This document shows, in pieces, positions 1-11,841 of a stretch of 11,841 nucleotides of DNA (positions within the stretch are counted from its first letter, which is position 1; each line of letters opens with the position of its first letter). This DNA is from Candidatus Aenigmatarchaeota archaeon. Its GTDB lineage: Archaea; Aenigmatarchaeota; Aenigmatarchaeia; GW2011-AR5. A program made the translations under genes and the position numbers. The stretch covers positions 1 to 11,841 of the forward strand of contig JACQIE010000009.1 in NCBI GenBank assembly GCA_016198645.1, written 5' to 3'. The notes beneath the pieces were generated by a model that worked only from the letters and a program-made list of their open reading frames with translations, had not been told where the DNA came from and did no database searches.

Positions 1-9
1 AAACGGGTC

Positions 10-40
10 AGGGTATTGGCGCAGAAGCGGCCAATACCCT
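10..40. repeat. Perfect 11-bp inverted repeat (stem-loop) before the epimerase gene
   Basis: Positions 10-20 (AGGGTATTGGC) are exactly complementary to 30-40 (GCCAATACCCT), with a 9-nt loop between them. A short T-containing stretch (TTACTTTAATT) follows. It could be the transcript end of a gene lying before the window, or an operator near the epimerase promoter, whose TATA-like box begins about 32 nt further on. Archaeal termination normally depends on T-runs and not on hairpins, so the role is open. Confidence 0.6.
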
Positions 41-71
41 TACTTTAATTGCAAAGCCTCTGAACGGCATT

Positions 72-84
72 CTATTTTATAAAC
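72..84 (+). promoter_or_regulatory. TATA-like box of the epimerase gene
   Basis: The stretch CTATTTTATAAAC is centred about 27 nt before the ATG at 105. In archaea transcription starts about 25 nt after the TATA box, so the mRNA would begin at or next to the start codon (leaderless). No clear Shine-Dalgarno sequence precedes this ATG, which agrees. Confidence 0.55.
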
Positions 85-104
85 GTTCCACGCAAGATAG
101 AACG

Positions 105-995
105 ATGAAAATCCTTATAACCGGCGGTGCCGGTTTTATAGGTAGTAACTTGGCGATGGCTCTGGAAAAGAGCCACGATGTCACCATACTTGACAATCTC
201 TCGTCCGGGAAAAAGGATAACCTCAAAGGATTTGCCGGCGCGACGGTGGAAGGCGACATAAGAAACGCGGCGTCGCTTAAAAAAGCGGGAACGCCGGACG
301 TTATTTTCCACGAGGCAGCCGTGACTGATACGACGATAACCGACCATGCCGCCATGGCATCGGTCAACGTGGACGGATTCACAAATATACTAAACTACGC
401 AAAAACGTGCGGCGCGCGCGTTGTTTACGCTTCTTCGGCGAGCGTCTACGGAAACGGGCCCGTGCCGATGCGCGAGGAGCAGAGCGCGCCGCTGAACGAA
501 TACGCGCTTTCGAAGCTAAAGATGGACAAAATGGCGATGGATTGCGACGTGAGAATAGTCGGGCTGCGATACTTTAATGTTTACGGGTCACGCGAAGAAG
601 GGAAGGGCAAAACGGCGAGTATGATAATACAGTTGGCAAGACAGATGCTTGCCGGGAAAAAGCCGAAAATTTTCAAACACGGCGAGCAGGTGCGGGACCA
701 CGTCTACGTGAAAGACGTAGTTGACGCCAATCTTCGCGCGATGAAAGCGAAGCAAAACTGCCTCGTCAACGTAGGCACGGGCAAGGCGACGAGCTTTAAC
801 GAACTCGTAAGCATACTCAACAAAACACTTGAGGCGAATCTCACGCCGGAATACATTGACAATCCTTACACTACCGCTTACCAGAGCAATACGCAAGCCG
901 ATACACGCAAGGCGGAAAAGCTCATAGGCTTCAAGGCACGTTACGCGCTCAACGAAGGCATAAAGGATTATTTCCGGGAAATCGGCTTGTTGTGA
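105..995 (+). CDS. NAD-dependent epimerase/dehydratase (extended SDR, GalE-like)
   Basis: A 296-aa extended short-chain dehydrogenase/reductase acting on nucleotide sugars. The N-terminal NAD(P)-binding Rossmann motif GGAGFIG is at residues 7-13. Asp30 ends beta-2 (TILDN), the usual ribose ligand in NAD-dependent members. SSASVYG (110-116) leads to the catalytic Tyr133-x3-Lys137 (YALSK). Length and motif order fit UDP-glucose 4-epimerases and related sugar dehydratases/epimerases, but substrate cannot be told from sequence. It probably serves surface glycan or S-layer glycosylation in the cytoplasm. The ATG at 105 is supported by a TATA-like box at leaderless distance and by the Rossmann strand starting at residue 2. 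It is transcribed towards the membrane-protein gene on the other strand. Confidence 0.93.
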   Translation: MKILITGGAGFIGSNLAMALEKSHDVTILDNLSSGKKDNLKGFAGATVEGDIRNAASLKKAGTPDVIFHEAAVTDTTITDHAAMASVNVDGFTNILNYAKTCGARVVYASSASVYGNGPVPMREEQSAPLNEYALSKLKMDKMAMDCDVRIVGLRYFNVYGSREEGKGKTASMIIQLARQMLAGKKPKIFKHGEQVRDHVYVKDVVDANLRAMKAKQNCLVNVGTGKATSFNELVSILNKTLEANLTPEYIDNPYTTAYQSNTQADTRKAEKLIGFKARYALNEGIKDYFREIGLL

Positions 996-1110
996 ACTGT
1001 GCGCTATGATTTAGAAGGCCAATGATAAATCTACCTATATTATATATCTAATTCTGATTATAGAGTATAAAGTGATGAGAAAAATAAAAGAAAAAATCAA
1101 AAACAGACTT
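996..1110. terminator. AT-rich convergent intergenic spacer, probable bidirectional termination region
   Basis: The epimerase gene (+) and the small membrane-protein gene (-) converge here. Read on the minus strand, the stretch after the stop codon holds several T-runs (complement of 1080-1105), the usual archaeal terminator signal. The plus strand is very AT-rich (TATATTATATATC at about 1036-1050). No gene is seen. Confidence 0.5.
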
Positions 1111-1473
1111 TTACTGGCCTGACGCGTGAGCGTAGATTGCCTTCGCAGCCACTATGACTGCGGCGGGGCTTGCCAGAGCTGCCAAATTGCCCACAACGGC
1201 GTTAAGCAGCGCACCAAGCTCAGCCACGTTAATGGCAGAAAAGCTTGCTGTACCGGCTGTTACCAGCGCGATGGCAGCCACGATGAACGCTGTTGCGTTC
1301 TTTTCGGCTACATTCACGAGGCCTACGACTACTCCCAGCAGGACCAGCAGCATAGGCACATAGCCTGCTACGCTGGCGATGACTGCGGCAGCATACGTGC
1401 CGCCCAGTGCCGCCAAAACGGCGACCGCCATCCCTGCAAGGAAAGCGTACTCCCCTATCTTTTCGGTGTCCAT
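1111..1473 (-). CDS. Small integral membrane protein with about four helices
   Basis: A 120-aa, very hydrophobic protein rich in Ala, Val and Leu. After a short polar start (MDTEKIGEYAF) come about four membrane segments, near residues 10-32, 35-55, 61-80 and 88-115, with a charged NVAEKN turn in the middle and a short polar end. I chose the ATG at 1473 over an in-frame start 36 codons earlier. It has an AGGTGA ribosome site 5 nt before it and a TATA-like box 35 nt before it, and the upstream extension is basic and non-hydrophobic. The protein resembles short membrane proteins I associate with small-genome archaea, but I know no function. It lies downstream of tRNA-Trp on the same strand but has its own promoter. 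Confidence 0.85.
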   Translation of the reverse strand: MDTEKIGEYAFLAGMAVAVLAALGGTYAAAVIASVAGYVPMLLVLLGVVVGLVNVAEKNATAFIVAAIALVTAGTASFSAINVAELGALLNAVVGNLAALASPAAVIVAAKAIYAHASGQ

Positions 1474-1514
1474 TTTTTCACCTATAAACGCTTCACACCG
1501 GACTATATTTAAGC
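1474..1514 (-). promoter_or_regulatory. Promoter and ribosome site of the small membrane-protein gene
   Basis: On the minus strand CTTAAATATA (1504-1513) is a TATA-like box centred about 35 nt before the ATG at 1473, predicting a start near 1483 and a leader of about 10 nt. That leader contains AGGTGA just before AAAAATG. This is a short-leader gene with a Shine-Dalgarno site, unlike its leaderless neighbours. Confidence 0.55.
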
Positions 1515-1600
1515 GTTTTGGGAGAAAGAAAGCTTTATATCCATGAACATGGCGAAAACGCGCGTTTCCTGCGGCAAACATACTTGTTTACTGTTCAAAA

Positions 1601-1755
1601 TGGGGTCGGGAGGATTTGAACCCCCGTCGGCTGGTTTCTTCCCGTGCTTTCATCGCCACACGAAGTGGCTCAAAGCTCCACTTTCCATGCTCTTGCTTTT
1701 GACGAAAGGGCATAGAACTGGAGCCAGCTGTCCTGCCAGGTTAGACTACGGCCCC
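1601..1755 (-). tRNA. trnW: tRNA-Trp (anticodon CCA) with an 82-nt intron at 37/38
   Basis: Read on the minus strand, this is a full cloverleaf once 1636-1717 is removed. Acceptor GGGGCCG pairs with CGACCCC (one C5:A68 mismatch). The D arm is GTCT/GGAC, the anticodon stem GCTGG/CCAGC with loop CTCCAGA, the variable loop CGAC and the T arm GGGGG-TTCAAAT-CCTCC, with discriminator A73. The mature length is 73 nt; CCA is not encoded. Positions 34-36 are CCA, so it decodes UGG (Trp). The anticodon is at 1718-1720 read in reverse. Archaeal tRNA-Trp genes commonly carry an intron at this place. I could not draw a fully canonical bulge-helix-bulge, so a relaxed splice motif is likely. The upstream promoter is weak by eye. 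Confidence 0.93.
1636..1717 (-). ncRNA. tRNA-Trp intron with box C/D-like guide element
   Basis: In RNA order, the intron holds the guide UGGAGC (1680-1675), one U, a D'-like box UUGA (1673-1670), a hairpin GCCAC-UUCGU-GUGGC (1669-1655) and a C'-like GAUGA (1654-1650). This is the order of a D'/C' kink-turn. The guide is complementary to GCUCCA of the same tRNA's anticodon loop. The residue paired to the fifth nucleotide before the D' box is C34, the nucleotide a 2'-O-methylation guide should choose. Haloferax tRNA-Trp introns are known to guide methylation of C34 (and U39). A clear outer box C and box D are not visible, so this may be a half guide. A competing hairpin AAGTGG/CCACTT can also form. 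Confidence 0.55.
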
Positions 1756-1774
1756 ATACCCCTCACTTAACCAA

Positions 1775-1809
1775 GACGCACAATGCTGTATGACGGCAAG
1801 CCGTGCGTC
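1775..1809. repeat. Hairpin unit 1 (GACGCAC...GTGCGTC)
   Basis: GACGCAC (1775-1781) is complementary to GTGCGTC (1803-1809). Inside, ACGGC-AA-GCCGT (1793-1804) forms a second stem that shares two bases with the outer one. The 5' side between the stems carries copy 1 of the 14-nt repeat. The layout matches unit 2 although the inner stem sequence differs. Confidence 0.6.
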
Positions 1810-1874
1810 TGACAGCTTCCGAGTGCGTATCCCAATACCCCGCAATGCTGTATGACGCACCAATGCTGTATGAC
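1781..1874 (+). repeat. Three direct copies of a 14-nt repeat, CAATGCTGTATGAC
   Basis: Exact copies stand at 1781-1794, 1843-1856 and 1861-1874. Start-to-start distances are 62 and 18 nt, so this is not a regular array. Each copy is linked to a GACGCA motif: GACGCA comes directly before copy 1, and copy 2 ends in the GACGCACC that runs into copy 3. A 13-nt piece, TGTATGACGCACC (1849-1861), occurs again in reverse orientation at 7974-7986 in the other large non-coding region. Confidence 0.8.
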
Positions 1875-1902
1875 AACTTCGTTGTCCAGTTGGTTTGCGT
1901 CA
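1853..1902. repeat. Hairpin unit 2 (TGACGCA...TGCGTCA)
   Basis: TGACGCA (1853-1859) is perfectly complementary to TGCGTCA (1896-1902). CCAA just inside (1860-1863) can pair with TTGG (1890-1893). The inner hairpin is GACAAC-TTC-GTTGTC (1872-1886). Copy 3 of the 14-nt repeat fills the 5' internal strand, as copy 1 does in unit 1. Different but still complementary inner stems in the two units suggest that structure is what is kept. Confidence 0.6.
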
Positions 1903-1983
1903 GTTCCCATCGCGTCGTATCCCATTATATTGATTCTTTTCGCTTGCTATCTGTCTCCCATGATTAACGATATCTATAGCCGC

Positions 1984-2042
1984 ATGTTTAAAAATCCGAT
2001 GCCAGCCGGTCGTTTTTTATAGAACAAAATCCAAGGAATGCC
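1984..2042 (+). promoter_or_regulatory. Promoter region of the ATP-grasp/FGase operon
   Basis: Two TATA-like stretches are present: GTTTAAAAAT (1986-1995) and TTTTTTATA (2013-2021). The second is about 26 nt before the ATG at 2043 and would give a leaderless mRNA. The first would give a leader of about 28 nt containing AAGGAA (2033-2038), a weak ribosome site. I cannot choose between them. Confidence 0.45.
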
Positions 2043-2897
2043 ATGTCCCACGGAAAAATTGCAGTCATAGCCGATGCCGAAAAGCAGAAGGAGCTGGCTC
2101 CGCTGGTCAGAAAAGGCGGGGAAATCTTCGGTTCCGCTCTCTTTGCGTCGTACGGGAAGATACGGATAGAGACCGGCCGGGGAATACGCGTCGTGTGCGA
2201 CGGCGAGGAGCTTACGGAATACGATGCGGTGTTTCCTTTCCCGTCGTCAATGGGCGATGCGGCGCTGCCCGTGATAGCCGCGCTTGACAGCTCACTGGCA
2301 TACGTGCCTTACGGCATGGACGCTTACTTTTCCTTCCAACGAAAAGCACTGGGCATGAAGATACTCAGCCACAGCGGATTTTCCTGTCTTGACGTTCACC
2401 ATGCGCTCACGGAAGATGCACTGACGGACGCAATACCTACGTTGCCCTTTCCGATACGGATAAGGATAGGCGACAAGTCGTCGATTATAGAGGACAAGAA
2501 GCATCTTTCAGCGCTGATGAAACTTAGGAAGAGCGGGCAGGCAATTTCTGTAGAGGAAACGGTTCCCGACAAGCTCATAGGCTGCTTCGTTGCCAACAAC
2601 GAGGCGCTGGCGAGCGTGGATATAATAAACGGCAAGACGAGGGCTGCCAACGTGGGCAGCGTGATGCAGGACATGGCAGTATCGGCGGTCCGCAGCCTCG
2701 GCTCTTCTTATGGGTTTGTCACGTTCGCTGATGACAAAATCGTCTCTTTCACGCTTTCGCCACCCATAGCATCCATTGAAGCCGCGTCTGGAAAAGACGT
2801 GTGCACACCGCTGCTGAACGTGGCAAAGAACGCGCGGCCTGCGAGAAAACTGGGGATATTGCGCGCCATCATGGGCGCCATAGGAGTGAGAAAATGA
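2043..2897 (+). CDS. Degenerate ATP-grasp protein (probable pseudoenzyme paralogue of the next gene)
   Basis: This 284-aa protein aligns along most of its length with the RimK-type ligase encoded next. LTEYDAVFP matches LSEYDCVFP, ALGMKILSHSGFS matches the DKFLTLLKLEDAGIA segment, and FVANNEALA matches LVVGNEVVA. The catalytic positions are changed. The nucleotide-binding Lys/Gly loop (KLVAGSLGKG) reads IRIGDKSS, the Arg after DI is Gly, and the metal-binding D...E-x-N set becomes V...F-x-L (VSFTLSPP near the C-terminus). It therefore probably does not bind MgATP normally and may be a regulatory or structural partner of the active ligase. Its stop overlaps the next start as ATGA, so the two are probably made together. 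It is cytoplasmic, with no signal or membrane segment. Confidence 0.8.
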   Translation: MSHGKIAVIADAEKQKELAPLVRKGGEIFGSALFASYGKIRIETGRGIRVVCDGEELTEYDAVFPFPSSMGDAALPVIAALDSSLAYVPYGMDAYFSFQRKALGMKILSHSGFSCLDVHHALTEDALTDAIPTLPFPIRIRIGDKSSIIEDKKHLSALMKLRKSGQAISVEETVPDKLIGCFVANNEALASVDIINGKTRAANVGSVMQDMAVSAVRSLGSSYGFVTFADDKIVSFTLSPPIASIEAASGKDVCTPLLNVAKNARPARKLGILRAIMGAIGVRK

Positions 2898-3808
2898 AGA
2901 TATGCATTCTAGGCTCAAGGGAGAGGAAACGGCAGGACCTGTGGCTGATAGAAGAGGCGAGGAAGCGCTTTGACAAAGTGTCTTACGTCCAGATACCGGA
3001 CATAAGGATACACGAAGGCGAGGCTTTCTTCAAGGGCGGGAAACTGTCGGAATACGACTGCGTTTTCCCCCGCATACCCAGGACATACAAGAATTTCGGA
3101 TACGTGATAACCAAGCTTCTGGAAAACCGCGTCTTCATGCCCGTGACGCCTGAATCTGTGATAGTCGCGCACGACAAATTTCTCACGCTGCTGAAGCTGG
3201 AGGACGCAGGCATAGCGATACCCGTCAGCTACCTTACATATACGGTGGAAAGCATGAAGCCTGTGCTGAACACGATAAAATACCCGCTGGTGATAAAGCT
3301 GGTCGCAGGCTCGCTCGGCAAGGGCGTCATGTTCGCCGAGAGCAAGCCGTCTGCAGTGTCGCTATTGGACACGGTCGAAGGAATGAAGCAGCCCATAATG
3401 GTGGAAGAATATCTGGAGAATCCGGGCGAGGATATAAGGGCGCTGGTCGTCGGCAACGAAGTCGTTGCGGCGATGAAGAGGACGGCGGAAAAGGGCGAGC
3501 GCCGCGCCAACATAGGCGCAGGAGGAACGGGAAAGAAAATACGGCTCAGCCACGAAATAAGCGACATAGCCGTGAGAACGGCAAAGGCACTGGGCCTTGG
3601 GATAGCCGGAATAGATATAATTGAAAGCAAACGGGGACCCCTTGTGATAGAAGCAAACGTGAACGTGCACTTTGAAGGCATAACCGAAGCCACGGGCGTG
3701 AACGTCGCGGGAGCGATGATGGATTACGCGAAGAAGGAAACGGAGATTTTCAAAAACGGCGGCACGCTTAGCCGTTTTCTGGGGATGGATGTGAGATGGA
3801 AAATCTGA
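2894..3808 (+). CDS. RimK-type ATP-grasp amino-acid/peptide ligase
   Basis: A 304-aa ATP-grasp ligase. Members activate a carboxylate as acyl-phosphate with ATP and join it to an amine; RimK, LysX, MptN and CofF add amino acids, often glutamate, to proteins or cofactors. Visible motifs are DKFLTL (94-99) opening the ATP-grasp core, Lys135 and the loop GSLGKG (139-144), EEY (171-173), DIR (180-182), AMKR (193-196), RANIGAGG (204-211), and the metal ligands Asp241, Glu253 and Asn255 in GIDIIE and VIEANVN. FEGI after these resembles RimK. The ATG at 2894 overlaps the preceding stop (ATGA); an in-frame start 31 codons earlier lies wholly inside that gene and is unlikely. The substrate is unknown. 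The neighbouring FGase-like hydrolases point to an amide- or peptide-bonded product. Confidence 0.92.
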   Translation: MKICILGSRERKRQDLWLIEEARKRFDKVSYVQIPDIRIHEGEAFFKGGKLSEYDCVFPRIPRTYKNFGYVITKLLENRVFMPVTPESVIVAHDKFLTLLKLEDAGIAIPVSYLTYTVESMKPVLNTIKYPLVIKLVAGSLGKGVMFAESKPSAVSLLDTVEGMKQPIMVEEYLENPGEDIRALVVGNEVVAAMKRTAEKGERRANIGAGGTGKKIRLSHEISDIAVRTAKALGLGIAGIDIIESKRGPLVIEANVNVHFEGITEATGVNVAGAMMDYAKKETEIFKNGGTLSRFLGMDVRWKI

Positions 3809-4602
3809 TGATTATCCGCGACCGCAGCGAATTGCAGGCGCTTGCCGGAACGAAAAAAACCGACAACAGCATATATTTCAGCGAATACGGCAGGACGCGG
3901 CTCCTTGCCGCGGCGGAACACGCCGTCGCGACGGAGATAACAATAAAGTACGGAGGAAAGACTGTGTCCGTGGGCATCGGTGACAGAAACACGGACGTGC
4001 TGGCGGCATTAGGCGCAGCGCACGCGGGTGGAGTGTGCATATACCCGACAATAATAAGAACGAAGCTGGACCTTGCGCGCGACCCTCTGGAAGAAGGGCT
4101 CACGCTTGCCGTGAAACACGAGAAAAGCATCATCAGCGTGCCAATAAGCAACGAACAAAAAACGCTCGCCCACATAGCCGGCACATACCACAATATGATA
4201 AAAAAATTCGCGCCTTCCGTTATCGTGGCTTATCACGGGATGCACCGTTCTTACAATACGGACGTGCTGCTGGGCTTCGGCCATTCGCACGAATTCATGG
4301 GCGGGAAGAAAAACGGGTTCGCATTCCGCCGCGTTTTCCGTGCCGCGCTGAACGACGAGCTAAAAAAGCGCGGGCTGGAGCCCATGACCGTGAAAATAGC
4401 AAGAAGCCACTTCACGGGCTCAAATAATTACACGCTTATACGGCATGTCAAGGAACACAACGACGCAACGCGCGAAAAGCGCATGGGCGTGCATGTTGAG
4501 TTCAACAGGAGCGGGCGCGTTTCTGCCAACGGGCTTCCGTCGCCGGAATACCAGATAGCCGCGCAGATTCTTGCGCAGTGCGCGAAGGAGTGGACGTTGT
4601 GA
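3796..4602 (+). CDS. N-formylglutamate amidohydrolase (HutG/FGase)-like hydrolase
   Basis: A 268-aa protein with the FGase-superfamily motif order. EHAVATE (His42, Glu47) gives two probable zinc ligands. IIRTKLDLARDP (86-97) matches the family's SRyviDlNRdP. YHNMIKKF (131-138) matches the YHxxL helix. YHGMHRSYNTDVLLG (146-160) matches the D-HG/S...DI-iG zinc-His loop. GVHVEFNRSGR (231-241) matches the catalytic Gln-x-Glu strand, with Glu235 as likely acid/base. FGases cleave N-acyl or amide bonds at glutamate, so this may remove what the upstream ligase adds. The gene overlaps the ligase stop. ATG 3796 (used here) and ATG 3808 (TGATG overlap, protein 4 aa shorter) are both possible; neither has a convincing ribosome site. 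Confidence 0.78.
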   Translation: MENLMIIRDRSELQALAGTKKTDNSIYFSEYGRTRLLAAAEHAVATEITIKYGGKTVSVGIGDRNTDVLAALGAAHAGGVCIYPTIIRTKLDLARDPLEEGLTLAVKHEKSIISVPISNEQKTLAHIAGTYHNMIKKFAPSVIVAYHGMHRSYNTDVLLGFGHSHEFMGGKKNGFAFRRVFRAALNDELKKRGLEPMTVKIARSHFTGSNNYTLIRHVKEHNDATREKRMGVHVEFNRSGRVSANGLPSPEYQIAAQILAQCAKEWTL

Positions 4603-4609
4603 AATGTTG

Positions 4610-4656
4610 CATTTTCTATTTAAAGGTGGATACAATATTTATAATCGGTGAAAAGT
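4610..4656 (+). promoter_or_regulatory. Promoter and ribosome site of the 48-aa small gene
   Basis: CTATTTAAAG (4615-4624) is a good archaeal TATA-like box. About 25 nt later comes GGTGA (4647-4651), placed 5 nt before the ATG at 4657. A second AT-rich stretch, CAATATTTATAA (4633-4644), could be an alternative box. Confidence 0.5.
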
Positions 4657-4803
4657 ATGACAGGTTCTGTGATAATAAAATACCCGTTTTACATAGTAGT
4701 ATCAGGAAATCCGTTAAATGCGATTATAAGCGGGAATGTTCTCCGTGTTGAGGCACGTGAAGGAAAATTAATTTATGGAACAGGTCTGTTGGGTACAAAA
4801 TGA
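4657..4803 (+). CDS. Small 48-aa protein of unknown function
   Basis: A complete short frame with its own TATA-like box and a well-placed GGTGA ribosome site. The protein starts MTGSVIIKYPFYIVV and ends GTGLLGTK. It alternates hydrophobic and polar residues, suggesting beta strands, with two SGN turns (SGNPLNAI and SGNVLRVE) that look like an internal repeat. There is no signal peptide, no membrane helix and no cysteine pair. It sits between the ATP-grasp/FGase operon and the oppositely oriented FGase-like gene, so it might belong to the same system. I do not recognise the family. The start and end signals make it more than a chance frame, but proof of translation is lacking. Confidence 0.55.
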   Translation: MTGSVIIKYPFYIVVSGNPLNAIISGNVLRVEAREGKLIYGTGLLGTK

Positions 4804-4857
4804 TAGAAAATTAATCTTACAGTTTGACGGAATTCGATATTTAGAAACCGGGGCATT

Positions 4858-5763
4858 TCATAACGCTCCTAATTCCTTCACGACTTCGCTTATCACTTTC
4901 ACGACATCTTCGGCATGATTTTCGTTGAGGAACGACTGCGATTCTACCTCGATGGCGGCGCCTCCGGTTTTTTTCAAAAGCGGCGCCACGGGCAGCGCGG
5001 TGTCGCCGGAATAAATATTTTCCACAGTTATCTTCAGCCGCGCGTTATCCAGTGCCTTGTCCAGCGCGCGGAAATATCTTTGCGTGCCAAAGTCGCCTGC
5101 TGAAAGCCGCATTCCCGAGAGCTCCGACGCCCTTGCTATGTCCTGATTGAGCCATAGGCGGCGCATGCCGGATTTAGCGTTGAGCAACGCGCCTTGCATC
5201 GCATGGAATGCCATGTCGCGTTTCCAGTCCTCCTTATACTTCTGAAAATCGCGTTTTGCGTTAAGCCGTGAAACGACCTGCTCCACTTTGCGCTTGTTCG
5301 CCCACTTCCCCCTGCCTGTCACTAAATCTATTACTGAAGGCAGATTCTTTGCCCTTGAACTAAGCGTGTGGCAGAAAACGAAGAAAGGGGTGCGATTGAC
5401 GCCGAGGCGCTCAACGGCTTTCCAGAACGAGCTGTAAATTTTTCCTTTGCGCCTGTGCTCTTCGGATGTTTGCGCGGCCCATGCATATTTCCTGTAAAAT
5501 CCTATGCTGCTTTTCGCATCGCCGACACGCATCGCGGCGCGGGGCGGCGCTCTATTGAAGTCTATACCTAATATACCGTGGCGCGGAATGCACGATATTA
5601 CGGCAGAACCGCCGTGTTGTGCAGCGAGGAATGCCACGTTTTCCGAGCCCACGTCCTCCCGCTCGGCTGAACGGTACGTTAGCGAGGAATGTGGCGCGAC
5701 GAATATCGGGCCGGGCTTTCCCGATTCAAACGTGACGAAACCGGGCGCGTATTTGAAATGCAT
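4858..5763 (-). CDS. FGase-like hydrolase, paralogue A (divergent pair)
   Basis: This 301-aa protein is clearly paralogous to the one encoded at 5802. PGPIFVAPHSS (His25), DVGSE (37-41), a GIDFNRAPP segment (66-74), CHTLSSR...PSVIDLVTGRG (His132, Arg137, Asp146) and AIEVESQSFLNE (Glu272, Glu274) occur in the order of N-formylglutamate amidohydrolases (PHsG, iDlNR, H...D, QxE). His25, Glu41 and His132 would be the zinc ligands. It probably cleaves an amide or acyl bond in the cytoplasm. A family-specific helical insert, rich in Lys and Arg, lies between residues about 150 and 250, so the protein is longer than typical FGases. The start is supported by a TATA-like box 26 nt upstream on the minus strand. 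Family assignment is by motif pattern only. Confidence 0.65.
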   Translation of the reverse strand: MHFKYAPGFVTFESGKPGPIFVAPHSSLTYRSAEREDVGSENVAFLAAQHGGSAVISCIPRHGILGIDFNRAPPRAAMRVGDAKSSIGFYRKYAWAAQTSEEHRRKGKIYSSFWKAVERLGVNRTPFFVFCHTLSSRAKNLPSVIDLVTGRGKWANKRKVEQVVSRLNAKRDFQKYKEDWKRDMAFHAMQGALLNAKSGMRRLWLNQDIARASELSGMRLSAGDFGTQRYFRALDKALDNARLKITVENIYSGDTALPVAPLLKKTGGAAIEVESQSFLNENHAEDVVKVISEVVKELGAL

Positions 5764-5801
5764 ACTATAATTAATCCGTACGGAATAAATATGTTGCGCA
5801 T
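5764..5801. promoter_or_regulatory. 38-bp divergent promoter with a central palindrome
   Basis: The two FGase-like genes diverge from this spacer. At its centre is the perfect 10-bp palindrome TCCGTACGGA (5775-5784). On one side lies ATAATTAA (5767-5774), TATA-like for the plus gene (about 30 nt from its ATG). On the other lies AATAAATATG (5784-5793), TATA-like for the minus gene (26 nt from its ATG). A repressor dimer bound to the palindrome would block both genes. Confidence 0.5.
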
Positions 5802-6812
5802 ATGAGGGCGTATTACAAGGAAGGGTTCATGATTCTGAAAACGGGCATGCCCGGGCCGGTTTTTATAGCCCCGCACTCGACTATGACGGTTTCTCCCGTC
5901 CTTCGCGGGGATGTGGGAACGGAAACGCTGACAAAGGTCCTCACTGCGAAGACGGGCAGCCTTGCAGTCATATCGCTTGTGCCGCGGGCAGGCAGATACG
6001 GAATAGACCTGTTCAGGGAGCCGGCGACGATGAAGGAAGCGCTGGAAATGTTCAAAACAGCGAACAGCTACGACAAAAGAGGCGCGTTTGAGAAGAAATA
6101 TGCGTTCTACGCCCAGGACCAGGATGAATACCTTGAGAAGATAGGCGTCCACAACCAGTTCTGGATGGCAGCCGAGACGCTGTGCCCACCGAACCCCCTG
6201 TACGCCATAATGCATTCGCAGGCGCTTAGAATAAAGAATTTCCCGTCCGTTCTCGACGTGTGCACAAATTCCGGCCGATGGTACAGCGAAAGCGCCGTGC
6301 GCGAAGCCGTGGCGAAGATAAACGACAAATATGCGGCGCGGCTGAAAAAAATCAAGCCCGTGCTGAAGCGGTACGCGCTTTACTGGGCGGATACGCACCT
6401 GCGGAGAAGCATAGGCTATCGCTTTAGGCGGTTTGACTTACGAACCATGCAGGGCAGCATCAAAACGGAGGTCATGAAAGACATAATGAACGCGTCGGCG
6501 ATACTGAAAGAAGATGCCAAATCACTGGAAAAGGACTTCACATGGGAAAAATACATGGCACTACTGGAGCGATGCATAGATGCCACCGACTTCGCTGTAA
6601 CGTACCAGAACAACTTCACCGGCAGGATGGGCGAAGGAAGAATTTCGCGGCTTATAGCAAAGAATGCGGGCAGCGCCGTCATGTTTGAGACATCGGCGTT
6701 CATGAACGAGATGTACACCAAAACGTCTTCGAGAATGGTTGAGGACATATTAAAGCGCGCCTCGTCAAAGAAGAAATGGGCGACGTTTGAGAACGCCGGT
6801 GAAAAGAAATGA
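5802..6812 (+). CDS. FGase-like hydrolase, paralogue B
   Basis: A 336-aa paralogue of the product of the divergent gene. PGPVFIAPHST (His25), DVGTE (37-41), GIDLFREP (67-74), MHSQALR...PSVLDVCTNSGRW (His138, Arg143, Asp152) and VMFETSAFMNE (Glu296) match it residue for residue around the supposed zinc site. One difference is that the N of the family's IDxNR is Phe here. The middle part is helical and basic. The C-terminus is longer and Lys-rich. The stop overlaps the start of the next gene (ATGA), so the two are translationally coupled. If the family reading is right, it is an amide hydrolase with a specificity different from paralogue A. An alternative is a related zinc peptidase-like fold. 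Confidence 0.65.
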   Translation: MRAYYKEGFMILKTGMPGPVFIAPHSTMTVSPVLRGDVGTETLTKVLTAKTGSLAVISLVPRAGRYGIDLFREPATMKEALEMFKTANSYDKRGAFEKKYAFYAQDQDEYLEKIGVHNQFWMAAETLCPPNPLYAIMHSQALRIKNFPSVLDVCTNSGRWYSESAVREAVAKINDKYAARLKKIKPVLKRYALYWADTHLRRSIGYRFRRFDLRTMQGSIKTEVMKDIMNASAILKEDAKSLEKDFTWEKYMALLERCIDATDFAVTYQNNFTGRMGEGRISRLIAKNAGSAVMFETSAFMNEMYTKTSSRMVEDILKRASSKKKWATFENAGEKK

Positions 6813-7084
6813 AAATAAAATTCGCTTCCGTTATTGCCGTATATGCGATGGTGCTGCTGGGCAACATATTTTACGTTTTCATTCCCGGCGCCTCACTTTT
6901 CGCACTGGATGAATTCCGGATATACGCCTTCGCTATTTTTGCGCCGCTTGTTCCCGTGGCAATAGCCGCGTCGGGCGCGCCCATCGCAAAGCACCACGAA
7001 ACGGCGATGCAGGCTATCGCAACTACGGCAATAATAATATCGGTTTTCGCCACGATAATTTACGGGCTGCCTGCGATTTTGTGA
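6809..7084 (+). CDS. Small membrane protein with three helices
   Basis: A 91-aa hydrophobic protein coupled to the FGase-like gene before it (ATGA overlap). Membrane segments are near residues 4-25 (starting FASVIAVYAMVLLG), 38-57 (IYAFAIFAPLVPVAIAAS) and 67-90 (ending in IIYGLPAIL). A short loop, APIAKHHE, between helices two and three holds two adjacent histidines. I do not recognise the family. The overlap suggests that it works with the hydrolase, for example as membrane anchor or transporter partner, but the sequence does not show this. Confidence 0.75.
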   Translation: MKIKFASVIAVYAMVLLGNIFYVFIPGASLFALDEFRIYAFAIFAPLVPVAIAASGAPIAKHHETAMQAIATTAIIISVFATIIYGLPAIL

Positions 7085-7087
7085 CCG

Positions 7088-7095
7088 TTAAATAA
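7088..7095 (+). promoter_or_regulatory. TATA-like box of the P-loop kinase gene
   Basis: TTAAATAA is centred about 25 nt before the ATG at 7116, predicting a leaderless mRNA. No ribosome site is visible before the ATG. This marks the kinase gene as a separate unit from the genes ending at 7084. Confidence 0.55.
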
Positions 7096-7115
7096 GTTGC
7101 GTTTTTAGTGCTCTC

Positions 7116-7655
7116 ATGAAACCCATGCTTGTAATCCTTACAGCATATCCCGGTGCCGGCAAGACAACAATATCCAGATATATGCAAACGCTTGGCTTTG
7201 CGCGCGTCGGAACGGACGATTACAGAAGGATGTTGTTTGACCAAGAGTATCCGGATATAATCGCCGGACAGGACGCGGAACGCAAAGAAGGGGCCGTATT
7301 TTCAATGCTGAACGGCGACAAGATTGAGCTGCTTGCGAACAACTGGGATGTTATAGTGGACTCCACTGCATCCACCCATGAACTCAGGCGTTACTTGCTT
7401 GATACCCGCACGCGCCGCGGGGAAATACCTGCCGACAAGTATGTCATGCATATCATGACGCGGGACGAAGAGCTAATAGCGCGAGGGCGGGGCGATGCAA
7501 TAGAAACATGGAACAAGTCATGGCAGGAACCGTCGTCACTTCTGTACGGATGTCCTGTTCTTCGGTATTACAACAACACTCCATGCGAGCGACAGGACGC
7601 ATTTGGAGACATAAGCGAAAGATTCAAAAGAAAACTCTGGGTTCCCTCGCACTGA
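7116..7655 (+). CDS. P-loop kinase (AAA_33 / zeta-toxin-like family)
   Basis: A 179-aa single-domain P-loop phosphotransferase. The Walker A motif is YPGAGKTT (11-18), preceded by Ala where the first Gly of the motif is usual. TDDYRRM just after it holds the Asp that in this group often binds the acceptor. DVIVDSTAST is the Walker-B-like strand with the DST/DATN signature of AAA_33 kinases, and RGRGDAIETW fits the lid with Arg residues. Relatives phosphorylate nucleotides, polynucleotide ends, antibiotics or sugar nucleotides. The substrate here is unknown. There is no antitoxin-like partner next to it, so a toxin role is unlikely. The C-terminal third (YGCPVLRYYNNTP) is typical of small nucleoside-kinase-like proteins. 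Confidence 0.85.
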   Translation: MKPMLVILTAYPGAGKTTISRYMQTLGFARVGTDDYRRMLFDQEYPDIIAGQDAERKEGAVFSMLNGDKIELLANNWDVIVDSTASTHELRRYLLDTRTRRGEIPADKYVMHIMTRDEELIARGRGDAIETWNKSWQEPSSLLYGCPVLRYYNNTPCERQDAFGDISERFKRKLWVPSH

Positions 7656-7666
7656 ACGGGTTAAAA
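7655..7666 (+). repeat. Left copy of 12-nt direct repeat AACGGGTTAAAA
   Basis: Identical to 8026-8037. It starts in the last base of the kinase stop codon. GGTTAAAAAT within and after it resembles a TATA box, so it might drive transcription of the non-coding region from about 7687. It could also be one edge of an inserted or duplicated segment. Confidence 0.6.
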
Positions 7667-7804
7667 ATCTGTGTCAGTAAGGAAACGGGAAACTCTGCAT
7701 GTGGCCGTATTTTGGCGAAACGGGGTTCGTCTTAGCTTTTACAACCCGCATAACGAAAGCCACCGAATACGAGAGACAAAGGCGGGTTACTGACGTACTG
7801 ACTG

Positions 7805-8014
7805 AACGGTAAACAAGTACAACAAAGGCTTTTCTTGGCAGGGTATACGAGGAATTCAAAGATTCCTCGTAATAAAGCCGAAAGCGAACCCACTCCCACA
7901 AAAATTCGAACAATGTATGAGAGTACTTTCCTTCGCTTTCCTAACACCCGCCACGAGCAACCCGACGCACAGCGGTGCGTCATACACCGTGTGGCGGGTA
8001 GTTTACTTACCGTT
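7805..8014 (-). ncRNA. Candidate structured RNA (nested multibranch fold)
   Basis: Six perfect stems nest without crossing. Outer AACGGTAA/TTACCGTT (7805-7812, 8007-8014) encloses GGCTTT/AAAGCC (7827-7832, 7874-7879) with hairpin TACGAGGAAT/ATTCCTCGTA (7846-7855, 7862-7871). It also encloses GAAAGCGAA/TTCGCTTTC (7880-7888, 7932-7940) and ACCCGCCAC/GTGGCGGGT (7946-7954, 7991-7999) with GACGCAC/GTGCGTC (7964-7970, 7975-7981). Strand is inferred: the palindromic TTTAAA at 8042-8047 would start a minus-strand RNA near 8019, just before the outer stem. No match to RNase P, SRP or rRNA signatures was seen. An alternative is a set of unrelated DNA hairpins. Confidence 0.4.
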
Positions 8015-8025
8015 TGGTATGGTAA

Positions 8026-8050
8026 AACGGGTTAAAATTCGTTTAAATCA
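8026..8050. promoter_or_regulatory. Promoter of the HIT gene, possibly bidirectional
   Basis: GTTTAAAT (8041-8048) is centred about 26 nt before the ATG at 8071, so the HIT mRNA should be leaderless. Its core TTTAAA is self-complementary and could also start transcription leftwards near 8019. The right copy of the 12-nt repeat AACGGGTTAAAA (8026-8037) lies next to it, where archaeal regulators or an upstream box could act. Confidence 0.5.
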
Positions 8051-8070
8051 GTTTCCGCTAAGACGTAGAG

Positions 8071-8517
8071 ATGGAATGCCTGTTCTGCAAGATAGCGCAG
8101 GGCGCGATGCCGTCGAAGAAGGTTTACGAGGACAAGGACACGATAGCGTTCCTCGATATAAATCCGGCGAACCCGGGGCATACGCTCATCGTGCCGAAGA
8201 AGCACGCGGAAAATATAATGGACGCGGACGATGCAAGCCTGGAAAAGGCGATAGTGGTCGCGAAGAAAATCGCCCGCATGGTTGCGGAAAAGACCGGAGC
8301 CGAAGGCGTGAACGTGCTGCAGAACAACGGCAAGCGCGCCGGACAGATAGTGAATCATGTGCATTTTCACGTGATACCGCGCTTCGAGAACGACTCAATG
8401 GTCATAAGCTATCCAAGGATGCACGCGAACGAAGCGGAGCTGGATGAAGTCGTGCTAAGGCTGACGAAAAGCAAGAATCCAATAGACGACGCGATAATGC
8501 GCGAGATGGGAGCATAG
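8071..8517 (+). CDS. HIT-family nucleotide hydrolase
   Basis: A 148-aa histidine-triad protein. CLFCKI (Cys3, Cys6) with His45 and His96 fits the zinc site of Hint-type members. INPANPGHTLIVPKKH is the conserved substrate-binding strand pair. NHVHFHVIPR (95-104) is the histidine triad, with His98 as the expected nucleophile that forms a nucleotidyl-His intermediate. Members hydrolyse AMP-lysine, phosphoramidates or dinucleoside polyphosphates such as Ap4A. The length is normal. It is a single-gene unit with a leaderless-type promoter, and T-rich DNA after the stop probably ends the transcript. Confidence 0.95.
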   Translation: MECLFCKIAQGAMPSKKVYEDKDTIAFLDINPANPGHTLIVPKKHAENIMDADDASLEKAIVVAKKIARMVAEKTGAEGVNVLQNNGKRAGQIVNHVHFHVIPRFENDSMVISYPRMHANEAELDEVVLRLTKSKNPIDDAIMREMGA

Positions 8518-8608
8518 GTTTTCTTGGGCATGTTTATCTCGGTTAGATTTTTGACGGCGCGGGTTTGTTTCAGTTTTTATTACGAGGTTCGTCCCTTACT
8601 AAACGCAG
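8518..8608 (+). terminator. T-rich terminator region after the HIT gene
   Basis: Downstream of the HIT stop the plus strand has T-runs at about 8519-8523, 8548-8552 and 8564-8579, the usual archaeal termination signal. TTTATTACGAGG (8576-8587) is the exact reverse complement of 7865-7876, so short inverted copies stand on both sides of the HIT gene. The minus-strand operon ends at 8609 facing this spacer. Confidence 0.5.
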
Positions 8609-8941
8609 TCACCCGAACATGACAATGCCCGCGGCAACAGAGAAGTTGAGCATCGCCCACAGAGTGTTCGATATTATTATCGGGCGCTCTTTATGGATGA
8701 CGCCATAGAGCAAAAAAGGCACGTTCACCATGAAATAAAGCGCCCATGTCATCAGCGAAAGGCCCACGACGTTATGGTTTGCCCAGACGTTATAAGCCTG
8801 CGGCAGCGTTGCCAGCGGCCCGAGAACAGCAAGTATTGTCACGGCGTTGTCAAGCAGCCGCATGCGCGGGTTAGGATGCGGATATTGGTCGTGACGTTTC
8901 GACTTGCGCTTGCTCTGATGAGACAAAACGCCGTAGACCAT
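8609..8941 (-). CDS. PQ-loop / SemiSWEET-like membrane protein
   Basis: A 110-aa protein with three membrane helices after a basic, His/Lys-rich start. GPLATLPQAYNVW (41-53) holds the Pro-Gln pair typical of PQ-loop, MtN3 and SemiSWEET repeats. LSLMTWALYFMVNVPFLLYG is the second helix region and LWAMLNFSVAAGIVMFG the third. SemiSWEETs dimerise to form sugar uniporters. An in-frame Met at residue 27 would give an 84-aa protein of typical SemiSWEET length. I kept the ATG at 8941 because a GTGATG-like ribosome site overlaps the stop of the preceding gene 4 nt away. It is the last gene of a minus-strand operon with the Lon-like protease. Confidence 0.8.
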   Translation of the reverse strand: MVYGVLSHQSKRKSKRHDQYPHPNPRMRLLDNAVTILAVLGPLATLPQAYNVWANHNVVGLSLMTWALYFMVNVPFLLYGVIHKERPIIISNTLWAMLNFSVAAGIVMFG

Positions 8942-8945
8942 AGCA

Positions 8946-9671
8946 TCACTTCATGAAATATTTGATTGCGTCGCCTATGTTTGAAACTTCTATGACGCTC
9001 AAACCGTCAATCGAGGCGCTTTTTTTCTGGACGTAATCTACAATACAATAATGCCTTCCGCGCCTTAAATAGCATTGCTCGGTTCGCTCTATTTCATCGC
9101 TGCCAAGCTGCCCTGTAGGAACGAGGAACGTCGTCGCGCCCGCATCCCTGGCAGCACCGGCTTTTTCCGCTACGCCACCCACTGCAGTTATCACGCCGTC
9201 TTCGCGGATGCCGCCGGTTATCACTACGCTATTGTCAAGCGTCCTGTTCTCTATCGCCGCGACTGCGCTTATTGCCATCGCCGCGCCGGCGGAGGGCCCC
9301 TCGATTGCCTGAGCGTCGGCTTTTATCACGTAGATTATATCATAGTCGTTTACGTTTTTGTTTGTGTATTTTCCGGCCGCGAGCACGGCAGCGCGGGCGG
9401 AAAGCTGCGTGTCATATTGCGACAGAACGCTATTCACGCTTACCAATATCTGCCCGGAACCGGGAATGGAAGCGGGGCGGGCGACGGTTATCAACTCGCC
9501 GATTACGCCGTTGCCCTGACCGTTCACGGCGGCAATCTTCATGGTAACTTCGTTGCCTTCCAGCGCGGGGCGGGAAAAGAAATAATAACCGCCCAGCAGC
9601 CCGGCAGCGAAAATACAGACTATAACAAGAGCTAAGCTCTTCTGCCCCAGCCTGTAGAATTTCTTCAACAT
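8946..9671 (-). CDS. Membrane-anchored Lon-like serine protease without ATPase domain
   Basis: A 241-aa protein. An N-terminal membrane anchor (residues about 12-32) is followed by an S16 (Lon) protease domain placed outside the cell membrane or in an archaeal pseudo-periplasm. The catalytic Ser127 lies in EGPSAGAAMA and Lys170 in GGVAEKAGAA. The spacing of 43 residues equals that of Ser679 and Lys722 in E. coli Lon. TGGIREDGVITAVGG is the conserved strand-turn before the Lys. No AAA domain is present, so it is not an ATP-driven Lon or LonB. A C-terminal Cys pair (CYLRRGRHYC) may form a disulphide. Its ATG lies inside the end of the upstream gene (7-nt overlap) behind GGTGA, so it is translationally coupled. 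Confidence 0.92.
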   Translation of the reverse strand: MLKKFYRLGQKSLALVIVCIFAAGLLGGYYFFSRPALEGNEVTMKIAAVNGQGNGVIGELITVARPASIPGSGQILVSVNSVLSQYDTQLSARAAVLAAGKYTNKNVNDYDIIYVIKADAQAIEGPSAGAAMAISAVAAIENRTLDNSVVITGGIREDGVITAVGGVAEKAGAARDAGATTFLVPTGQLGSDEIERTEQCYLRRGRHYCIVDYVQKKSASIDGLSVIEVSNIGDAIKYFMK

Positions 9672-10129
9672 ATTTTTTCACCGCCTGCTTCCAGAAGCTT
9701 CTCTTCGAAGAGAACCGGCACTCCCATCCGTATCGCCATGCCTACGGCATCCGTCGGGCGGGAATCCATCTCCAGCGTCTTTCCGCCGGTCGTCACAACC
9801 ATTCTGGCGGTGTATATTCCATCGGAAATTCCGTCTATGCGGGCAGACGCCAGCCTTATTCCATAGGCGTCAAATATGTCCTTCATTATATCCTGTGTCA
9901 TCGGCCTCACGTAGAATTTTTTTGCCATCGCCGACGCTATCGATATCGCCTGATGGTCGCTCACCGTCATATTCACGGCGCGGCATTCGCCCGTCAGAAT
10001 CAGCACATCGCCGTCTATCGCCGGAGTCACCTCAACGTAGTTTGCAGCCGGCGTGTCCAGCTGGCTCTGCATGAGCACGAACGCCAGAAATCCAATTATT
10101 CCTATTATTGCAACCGTCAGTTTTGCCAT
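9665..10129 (-). CDS. DUF151 / bifunctional nuclease-like protein with membrane anchor
   Basis: A 154-aa protein with an N-terminal helix (residues about 4-20, TVAIIGIIGFLAFVLM) and a linker, followed by a DUF151-type domain. MTQDIMKDIFDAYGI matches the family's helix. DGIYTARMVV, GGKTLEMDSRPTDAVGMAIR (RPTDA at 124-128) and GVPVLFEEKLLEAGG match the signature in which RPSDAIALA is usual, here RPTDAVGMA. Some family members have been reported as dual DNase/RNase, but the role in archaea is unclear. I preferred ATG 10129; a GTG three codons earlier is possible. GGGTGG precedes the ATG by 6 nt. It heads an operon with the Lon-like protease, and both carry the same anchor-plus-domain layout, so they may act together at the membrane. 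Confidence 0.85.
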   Translation of the reverse strand: MAKLTVAIIGIIGFLAFVLMQSQLDTPAANYVEVTPAIDGDVLILTGECRAVNMTVSDHQAISIASAMAKKFYVRPMTQDIMKDIFDAYGIRLASARIDGISDGIYTARMVVTTGGKTLEMDSRPTDAVGMAIRMGVPVLFEEKLLEAGGEKIC

Positions 10130-10175
10130 CGAGTCCACCCAAATCTATATATACCGTAACTATACATTCATTGTA
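10130..10175. promoter_or_regulatory. 46-bp divergent promoter region with palindromic TATATATA
   Basis: TATATATA (10146-10153) is centred about 26 nt before the ATG at 10176, fitting a leaderless mRNA of the secreted Cys-rich protein. On the minus strand the same palindrome is only about 21 nt from the ATG at 10129. A second stretch, GTATAGTTA (complement of 10157-10165), could serve that gene. Either way two opposite promoters overlap here and may interfere with each other. Confidence 0.5.
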
Positions 10176-11841
10176 ATGGAGCCACGGAATATATTATTAT
10201 TTCTCGTTCCACTATTAATTATTTCCGCTGTTCCATTTTCTCTTGCCGATGAAGGCGCATCGCCTCCGCCGGAGACTACACAGCCGCCGGCGAGTGACAC
10301 TCCTCCTGCCAGCGCGCCGGACACAACGCCGCAGGATAGCGGCAGTCCGCCGGCAGGCGACACTCCTGACGCAACCGATACTACACAGCCGCCGACTGAC
10401 GTTGTGAATCCCGATTCTTCCCAGGGAAGTGACTCGTTGCGTGAAGGCGAAAATCCGCCGGAAAACGTGCCACGGCCGGACGATAACCCGCTTCCTGAAA
10501 ACGTCAATCCGCCTCGCCCATCGGAAGGAGGGCAGGAACCGCCTGAATTTGGCGACGACGGAAGGCGTGAAGAGCGTCCGCCGGAACGCCCGCCGATGCA
10601 AATCCCGCCCGGTTGCCGTGAAGAAAGGGAGCCGAACGGCTTCGTAAGAGTCGTGTGCGACACGCAAACGCAGTGCCCTCCGCCGCAGAAAGAACAGGTT
10701 GACAAATGCATGGAGAGCGGCGGACATTCTTCATATTCAAGGTCACCCAACGGATGCGAGGTTTTCAGTTGCCAATTCACGCAGACTGCTGAACTGCAGG
10801 GCGGCGTGTTCAAGCAATACTCTCAATGCCCGTCGCAGTCTGACACGGACGCAGCAATAAACAAATGCCAAAGCAACGGGCTAAGGGGCGTCATGTTCCA
10901 GAGAAACGGCTGCTCAATTGTGGAATGCATAGGTGAACGGCAAAACAGGTGCCCGCAGATAAATCAGGAAATGAAAGCGCGCGCAGAATCCCAGTGCCAG
11001 GGCTCTCCTATAATACGGGACTATGACGGCAACGGCTGTGAAGTTTTGCGATGCGCGCCGCAAAACCAGTGCAGGACTAATATTGACCAGGGAGCCTACG
11101 CGGCATGCGAGAGCCGCGGCGGCGAGATGATAACGAATCAGGACAATAACGGATGCATAACTTTCGCGCAGTGCGTCACGCAGGGCGACGATACCGATAT
11201 TTATGTGGAAAGGCCGACGAAGGAACTGGATTCCGGCGAACTTCTCTCGCTTGCGTTTAAGCTGGAAAATCTGGCCGTTCAGCTTGACACGCTTTCCAAG
11301 CAATCAGACGATATAGCGACATATTATGCCTCCTCCGGCGAGCCGGCGGAAAAAAGATTCCGCCGCGTTTCAGATATGTTCTTAGCCGCCAAGTCCAGCG
11401 TTCAGGATATAAAAGACAAGGTACGCAGCAGGCTGGATACGCTGTCAGTAGACGACATGGTGGAAGTGAAGCAGGACTTGCGCTATATCAAAGACGTAGT
11501 GATAAAGGACATCGTATACGTGATGCTTAGCTCTGACTCGGAAATAGAGAGTGCTGTGGAAGAAGGCAAGACCAAGGACTGCGGGACGAACGGGCAGTGC
11601 TTTGACCGCGCGTTCAGGATATGCGCGCCCGTGAAATTCCTGCCCGAAGGGAGGTCGGGTCCTGCAGTCGAGGTTACCGGACTTGAAGGCAATGCGTGTG
11701 TTCTGAAGGCGACGATGTTCGACCAGGACATGACGTGCAAGATAGAAAAGTATGCCCTTGGGGTAAGGGATCCCGAGACGGATATTCTTACGTTTTGCGT
11801 GGGCCCGCTGCTTGAAAGCTTGAAGACGCAGGGCTTGGACG
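10176..11841 (+). CDS. Secreted Cys-rich repeat protein with Pro-rich stalk (partial, runs off the window)
   Basis: An open frame of 555 codons with no stop before the window ends. Residues 1-24 are a signal peptide (basic start, NILLFLVPLLIISAVPF core, cut near SLA-DE). About 25-146 is a low-complexity stalk rich in Pro, Asp, Glu, Thr and Ser. Residues 167-333 hold four repeats of about 35 residues, each with four Cys and an NGC motif (C167/178/194/199, C218/231/246/251, C259/274/288/293, C299/311/327/333). C147 and C161 look like a half repeat. About 350-460 is helical with heptad-like Leu spacing. About 468-545 is a second Cys-bearing domain starting DCGTNGQCFDRAF. It is probably an exported, disulphide-stabilised cell-surface protein. 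It has typical in-frame codon use, and the start agrees with the TATA position. I know no family. Confidence 0.88.
   Translation, partial: MEPRNILLFLVPLLIISAVPFSLADEGASPPPETTQPPASDTPPASAPDTTPQDSGSPPAGDTPDATDTTQPPTDVVNPDSSQGSDSLREGENPPENVPRPDDNPLPENVNPPRPSEGGQEPPEFGDDGRREERPPERPPMQIPPGCREEREPNGFVRVVCDTQTQCPPPQKEQVDKCMESGGHSSYSRSPNGCEVFSCQFTQTAELQGGVFKQYSQCPSQSDTDAAINKCQSNGLRGVMFQRNGCSIVECIGERQNRCPQINQEMKARAESQCQGSPIIRDYDGNGCEVLRCAPQNQCRTNIDQGAYAACESRGGEMITNQDNNGCITFAQCVTQGDDTDIYVERPTKELDSGELLSLAFKLENLAVQLDTLSKQSDDIATYYASSGEPAEKRFRRVSDMFLAAKSSVQDIKDKVRSRLDTLSVDDMVEVKQDLRYIKDVVIKDIVYVMLSSDSEIESAVEEGKTKDCGTNGQCFDRAFRICAPVKFLPEGRSGPAVEVTGLEGNACVLKATMFDQDMTCKIEKYALGVRDPETDILTFCVGPLLESLKTQGLD

Follow-up and report, generated by a model that had tools for sequence, protein, structure and literature searches.

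The 11,841-nucleotide stretch of DNA analysed here (hereafter the window; assembly GCA_016198645.1, contig JACQIE010000009.1, positions 1 to 11,841) comes from a Candidatus Aenigmatarchaeota archaeon with an assembled genome of 655 kb at 70% completeness, and it carries an intact RimK-family ATP-grasp ligase (gene B), a degenerate paralogue of that ligase (gene A) and three putative hydrolases (genes C, D and E) that resemble N-formylglutamate amidohydrolase (FGase). Judged from sequence, the strongest new results are an ancient pairing of an active with a dead RimK across lineages titled as DPANN archaea, and a link between this pair and a protease or hydrolase that varies by lineage. A linked ligase/hydrolase system appears well supported because the genes co-occur and share loci, the catalytic residues of B are kept, H/R/D/H/E positions are conserved in C, D and E, and E has a predicted FGase-type fold. 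The interpretation considered most probable, at roughly 50%, is that these genes would form a DPANN version of RimK/RimB ("Rim") glutamylation, with B as the ligase, A as a pseudoenzyme partner and C, D and E as hydrolases.

The identification of B as an intact RimK-type ligase, first proposed in a sequence-only reading of the window, is borne out by profile searches and by residue counts. B passes the cut-offs of Pfam RimK (PF08443; E-value 1.4e-43, 149.2 bits, cut-off 21) and of the RimK-family model TIGR00768 (210.2 bits, cut-off 143.4), and its closest solved structures are the alpha-L-glutamate ligases 7qyr and 7qys from Pseudomonas, followed by E. coli RimK. All 12 scored catalytic residues, which we take to be ATP-, substrate- or Mg-binding in RimK-type enzymes, are present in B of the window and in 62 of 64 non-redundant B proteins, the remaining two having 11; since these positions were chosen from those conserved in B (and are partly covered by one of the patterns of the locus scan described below), the high score of B is partly built in, whereas the loss in A is not. 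Identical proteins were counted once in this comparison, and the A and B classes were assigned by best-scoring profile and not by residues. Thirteen RimK-like open reading frames (ORFs) scoring below 150 bits fall outside both classes: three second copies in family f7 (2-3 of the 12 residues), two lone proteins in family f11 (6 of 12) and eight other ATP-grasps (7-11 of 12). The lone f11 proteins (L078 9415-10380, minus strand; L079 7774-8718, minus strand) belong to genomes G048 and G042, neither of which contains a B-type match above 300 bits (here and below, G, L and f numbers denote genomes, loci and families).

Gene A matches no model of Pfam or NCBIfam at E-values of 1 or below, and its relationship to B emerges at the level of family profiles: the A and B families align over nearly their full length (hhalign E-value 4.2e-57), and the A family profile retrieves RimK structures. 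Only 2 of the 12 catalytic residues remain in A of the window, too few for an active ligase, and the 40 non-redundant A proteins keep 0-5 of them, with the D-E-N Mg triad present in none. Homologous to B by profile but with its catalytic residues gone, A is best read as a pseudoenzyme, consistent with the earlier proposal of a degenerate RimK paralogue. Between two congeners, the ratio of nonsynonymous to synonymous substitution (dN/dS) is 0.058 in A and 0.040 in B; the values against the window, 0.212 and 0.166, were obtained at a high, near-saturated dS. The alternative that A is a decaying pseudogene was rejected on account of its open frame, the congener ratio and the occurrence of A reading frames of ~280-340 amino acids (aa) in many genomes. 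In a quick-mode tree of 40 A proteins, 34 of the 64 B proteins and 10 of the 13 others, a single clade (SH-aLRT 97) unites all 40 A proteins with four further degenerate rows, and the same lineages make up the window-type subclades of A (SH-aLRT 92) and B (SH-aLRT 99), indicating that the pair evolved together. By these measures, A is an old pseudoenzyme under purifying selection. The dead twin itself had been recognized in the sequence-only reading; its conservation far beyond the genus had not been foreseen.

A survey of 156 genomes of the phylum, including that of the window, detected B (matches above 300 bits) in 47 genomes, the D/E family in 32, the C family in 7 and a RimB-type protease in 40 (37 of them strong matches). 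B is present in 28 of the 32 genomes with a D/E gene (Fisher p = 2.1e-14 across the 156 genomes, a value that ignores kinship), and the nine families with D/E genes all lie among the 15 families with B. The clustering exceeds chance, with the reservation that the genomes are related, and the ATP-grasp pair does occur together with FGase-like genes in relatives. A scan of named contigs returned 58 related loci, every one titled either as a DPANN lineage (Aenigmatarchaeota, Altiarchaeota, Nanoarchaeota, Parvarchaeota, Woesearchaeota, Nanohalarchaeota or Diapherotrites) or simply as "archaeon"; because the scan used two narrow patterns, it does not show absence outside DPANN. The group names are those of the record titles, which are fallible (e.g., L113, titled Nanoarchaeota, is the same stretch as G047, which is placed in the class of the window).

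Gene order differs among lineages. The order A, B, C is found in the genus of the window, in families f25 and f26 and in loci L116-L118 (two of them titled Altiarchaeota); the order MscS-like gene, RimB, B, A in loci titled Woesearchaeota, Parvarchaeota and Nanoarchaeota; and the order pseudo-RimK, MscS-like gene, FGase-like gene in families f8, f19 and f32. Five genomes from f19 and f32 (G117, G122, G124, G132 and G137) carry a D/E gene ~1 kb from the pseudo-RimK, with B either 15 kb distant or on a separate contig, in a distance analysis of 40 of 45 D/E rows that excluded five fragments and used the stronger RimK rows only. Further glutamate ligases occur in some modules: L071 has GCS2, and L093 has a CofE-like protein. 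Locus L093 (7661-17591, genome G118) is an expanded module with YheC/D-type ATP-grasps, more RimK-like genes, the CofE-like gene and two FGase-like genes, and in the congener G001 a PGA_cap protein (PF09587, 8e-66; L057 8005-9012, minus strand) lies between the orthologues of C and D.

The protease or hydrolase accompanying the ligase also differs among relatives. Many of them encode a RimB-type retropepsin (PF05618), and 29 of the 31 rows aligned carry the DTGA motif. Amongst the 47 genomes with B, 34 have a strong RimB-type match, 6 have C and none has both; conversely, B accompanies 6 of the 7 C genes and 34 of the 37 strong RimB-type genes at the genome level. No genome of the 156 combines RimB-type and C genes, and the three genomes whose weak RimB-type matches were left out of the count (G004, G087 and G129) lack C. 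Within 3 kb of 64 B genes, RimB was found 31 times, C nine times, both never and neither 24 times (some of these B genes lie at contig ends). A RimB-type retropepsin was not found in the genus of the window (G000, G001, G002 and G003), at a completeness of 70% for G000 and 93% for G002; G004, of the same family, has a weak match (1.7e-9). That a RimB-type protease occupies the place of C in many relatives had not been foreseen in the sequence-only reading. The RimK pair of family f7 has as its neighbor an MscS-like membrane protein that is fused to a peptidase domain of the C39 type (L075 6332-7897, plus strand); this assignment comes from Pfam, run on L075 only, and the MscS-like proteins of L076 and L077 match that of L075 in length (521-525 aa).

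Genes D and E are paralogous (31% identity, E-value 2.0e-38). The predicted structure of E has an FGase-type fold, and seven residues (H25, R62, D69, R72, H138, D152 and E296 in the numbering of E) are invariant in D, E and 14 relatives. Against Pfam FGase (PF05013), D scores below threshold (E-value 0.018, 15.6 bits, cut-off 28.9), neither C nor E gives a match, and two of eight members of the C family give sub-threshold matches (best E-value 0.0065). The eight C proteins share the invariant residues H42, R88, D92, R95, H147 and E235, and a profile-profile comparison of the C and D/E families reaches 93.9% (E-value 1.5e-7, 124 columns), compared with 0.1-0.3% for three unrelated control profiles, so that the description of C as FGase-like is supported but remote. 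Relatives of C and D/E are annotated in their sources as "hypothetical protein" at most, and the D/E relatives come from archaeal metagenome-assembled genomes wherever an organism is given; scanning genome contigs with the D/E alignment yielded no usable stretch. Of the initial proposal that all three products are FGase-like, the part concerning D and E is upheld by their paralogy and by the predicted fold of E and weakened by their Pfam scores; for C it stands on the profile link to D/E, with no FGase match of its own. Profile searches did not place the D and E products in an unrelated, non-hydrolytic family.

We infer the glutamate substrate, an A-B complex, the acceptor, the replacement of RimB by C and the targets of D and E along the following lines. 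B would ligate an amino acid, most likely L-glutamate, onto a carboxylate, either extending an acceptor by a short polyglutamate tail or producing free poly-alpha-glutamate. A would most likely replace some of the subunits in a mixed RimK oligomer, where it could help to select the acceptor or tune activity. C, a probable metal-dependent amidohydrolase, would trim the additions made by B, the task of RimB in bacteria, and D and E, as putative M14/FGase-fold hydrolases, would act on the same glutamyl product. A wider version, in which several DPANN lineages share such glutamylation, with a mixed active/dead RimK oligomer, the dead twin instead of the active ligase as the partner of D/E, and an exchanged eraser (RimB, an FGase-type enzyme in the clade of the window and perhaps the MscS-linked C39 peptidase of f7), is absent from the literature searched and is put forward only tentatively.

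Several observations weigh against DPANN glutamylation as proposed. No result here favors glutamate over other amino acids for B, which falls far short of the equivalog model for the S6:glutamate ligase (PRK10446; 169.6 versus 331 bits). The acceptor of that enzyme, bS6, is a bacterial protein, and to our knowledge an S6 acceptor is not expected in archaea. In a sequence search of solved structures, the D/E family profile does not retrieve an FGase; Foldseek taken by itself returns for gene E, at E-values up to 0.001, only the five chains of 2odf (TM-score 0.41-0.46 by query length); and the tie of C to FGase is remote, its structure model being of low quality (pLDDT 39.6). A and B are not always neighbors (on the single contig of genome G122, the distances between them are 13 kb and 250 kb), and 7 of the 47 genomes with B have neither RimB nor C (five in f7, two in f17). 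Finally, the loci with an A-B-C operon form one clade in both the A and the B trees. C may therefore have taken the place of RimB in a single event, the Fisher values are not independent of kinship, and the idea that such replacements arose several times independently is unsupported.

The chief rival explanation, although an unlikely one, is a free pool of oligo- or polyglutamate, in which the soluble glutamyl peptides made by B would serve as an osmolyte or nitrogen store, the hydrolases would recycle them, and the MscS-like channel of related modules would provide an osmotic link. A free polymer has no obvious need for a pseudo-subunit, and the genus of the window shows no MscS-like protein of the module type among the matches listed; those in G000-G003 are short, weaker forms common in the phylum, and an MscS-like protein was accordingly rejected as part of the window system. 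An envelope pathway, with ligases building and M14-type hydrolases trimming short peptides on a surface polymer, is improbable given that the window has no PGA_cap gene and that 41 of the 45 clustered loci lack an epimerase.

Tailing of a cofactor or carrier of the F420, methanopterin or LysW type is highly improbable. The MptN, CofF and LysX models score above noise on B, a CofE-like gene occurs in two f19 genomes (inside the module in G118), and methylofuran provides a precedent for a cofactor receiving polyglutamate, added by MyfA/MyfB (as excerpted from PMC8141765). B nevertheless misses every equivalog cut-off tested (LysX, 155 of 275.6 bits; MptN, 131.5 of 350; CofF, 55.2 of 300). LysW exceeds its cut-off in none of the 156 genomes (three weak matches; the control search gave matches in 4 of 14 named genomes), and on this ground the LysW reading was rejected. 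CofE-type ligases exceed theirs in five genomes, none in the genus of the window, which disfavors F420. Of the original suggestion of reversible tagging or of making and trimming a glutamyl tail, the linked ligase/hydrolase system finds support and the cofactor-tail branch, for LysW and F420, does not.

DPANN glutamylation as proposed has partial counterparts in known systems, described here from excerpts of the cited papers. Polyglutamylated RpsF loses glutamates through the action of RimB, which also stimulates RimK in the synthesis of poly-alpha-glutamate (PMC11957791). RimK is a tetramer (PMC10092738). The genes studied here resemble bacterial RimK/RimB (RimABK) in their RimK-family ligase and, in many relatives of the window, in the neighboring RimB-type retropepsin; they differ in the added, conserved pseudo-RimK and, in the genus of the window, in having C and no RimB. 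The Rlo operon of Pseudomonas, which affects hypo-osmotic tolerance, encodes a retropepsin (RloA), a membrane protein (RloB) and an ATP-grasp protein (RloC), a combination of protease, ATP-grasp and membrane protein also seen in relatives with the MscS-like protein; its membrane protein is different, its protease is secreted, and the excerpted description includes no pseudo-RimK or FGase-like genes (PMC12239564). A catalytically dead ATP-grasp is likewise retained in an ATP-grasp locus in branch 8 of the graspetides, there as a two-domain truncation, whereas A is full length and RimK-derived (PMC8939145). MyfA and MyfB are also two ATP-grasp proteins of one glutamate-adding pathway, but each mutant accumulates short intermediates, so that both seem active, and the acceptor is a cofactor (PMC8141765). 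D and E resemble the FGase/M14-type hydrolases (Atu2144, 2odf; PghP, 3a9l) in their conserved H/R/D/H/E positions, and E resembles Atu2144 and possibly PghP in its predicted fold; C, D and E all remain under the Pfam thresholds. A literature search returned nothing on RimK or ATP-grasp proteins together with N-formylglutamate amidohydrolase, nor on RimK in Aenigmarchaeota.

Features of the gene group in the window (overlaps and orientation as read from the sequence)
Feature	Position	Strand	Remarks
A, pseudo-RimK	2043..2897	+	284 aa; residues of the ATP loop, the substrate arginine and the Mg ligands missing
B, intact RimK-family ATP-grasp ligase	2894..3808	+	304 aa; ATGA overlap with A (4 nt)
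C, remote FGase-like protein	3796..4602	+	268 aa; 13 nt overlap with B
D, paralogue of E, probable FGase-fold hydrolase	4858..5763	-	301 aa; divergent from E
Intergenic D/E, 38 bp, candidate shared promoter	5764..5801	none	sequence reading only
E, FGase-fold hydrolase (predicted fold)	5802..6812	+	336 aa
F, small protein, probably membrane-bound (judged by eye)	6809..7084	+	91 aa; 4 nt overlap with E

Two small products had been suggested as extra parts. F has no family match above cut-off in Pfam or NCBIfam; a homologue with 43-44% identity adjoins E in both congeners (G001 and G002). The ORF at 4657-4803 (48 aa) was dropped, having no Pfam match and no relative in the collected loci, where tblastn matched only the window's own sequence. 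Upstream of A, an Rfam tRNA match (1601-1755, minus strand; 41.6 bits), not called by ARAGORN, spans 155 bases and is thus probably an intron-containing tRNA; between it and A, CAATGCTGTATGAC is present three times in ~95 bases (1781-1874). Downstream, the products of 8946-9671 and 9665-10138 (both minus strand) look by eye like a protease domain of the Lon type (S16) and a nuclease of the DUF151 family, respectively.

If DPANN glutamylation as proposed here is correct, Rim-type glutamate addition would reach small, mostly uncultured archaea, and the A-B pair would exemplify an active enzyme accompanied by an ancient pseudoenzyme sister that is kept by selection. The association also suggests what the C and D/E families, both unannotated, may do, and co-expression of a few genes would allow glutamylation of proteins or polymers to be tested in DPANN archaea.

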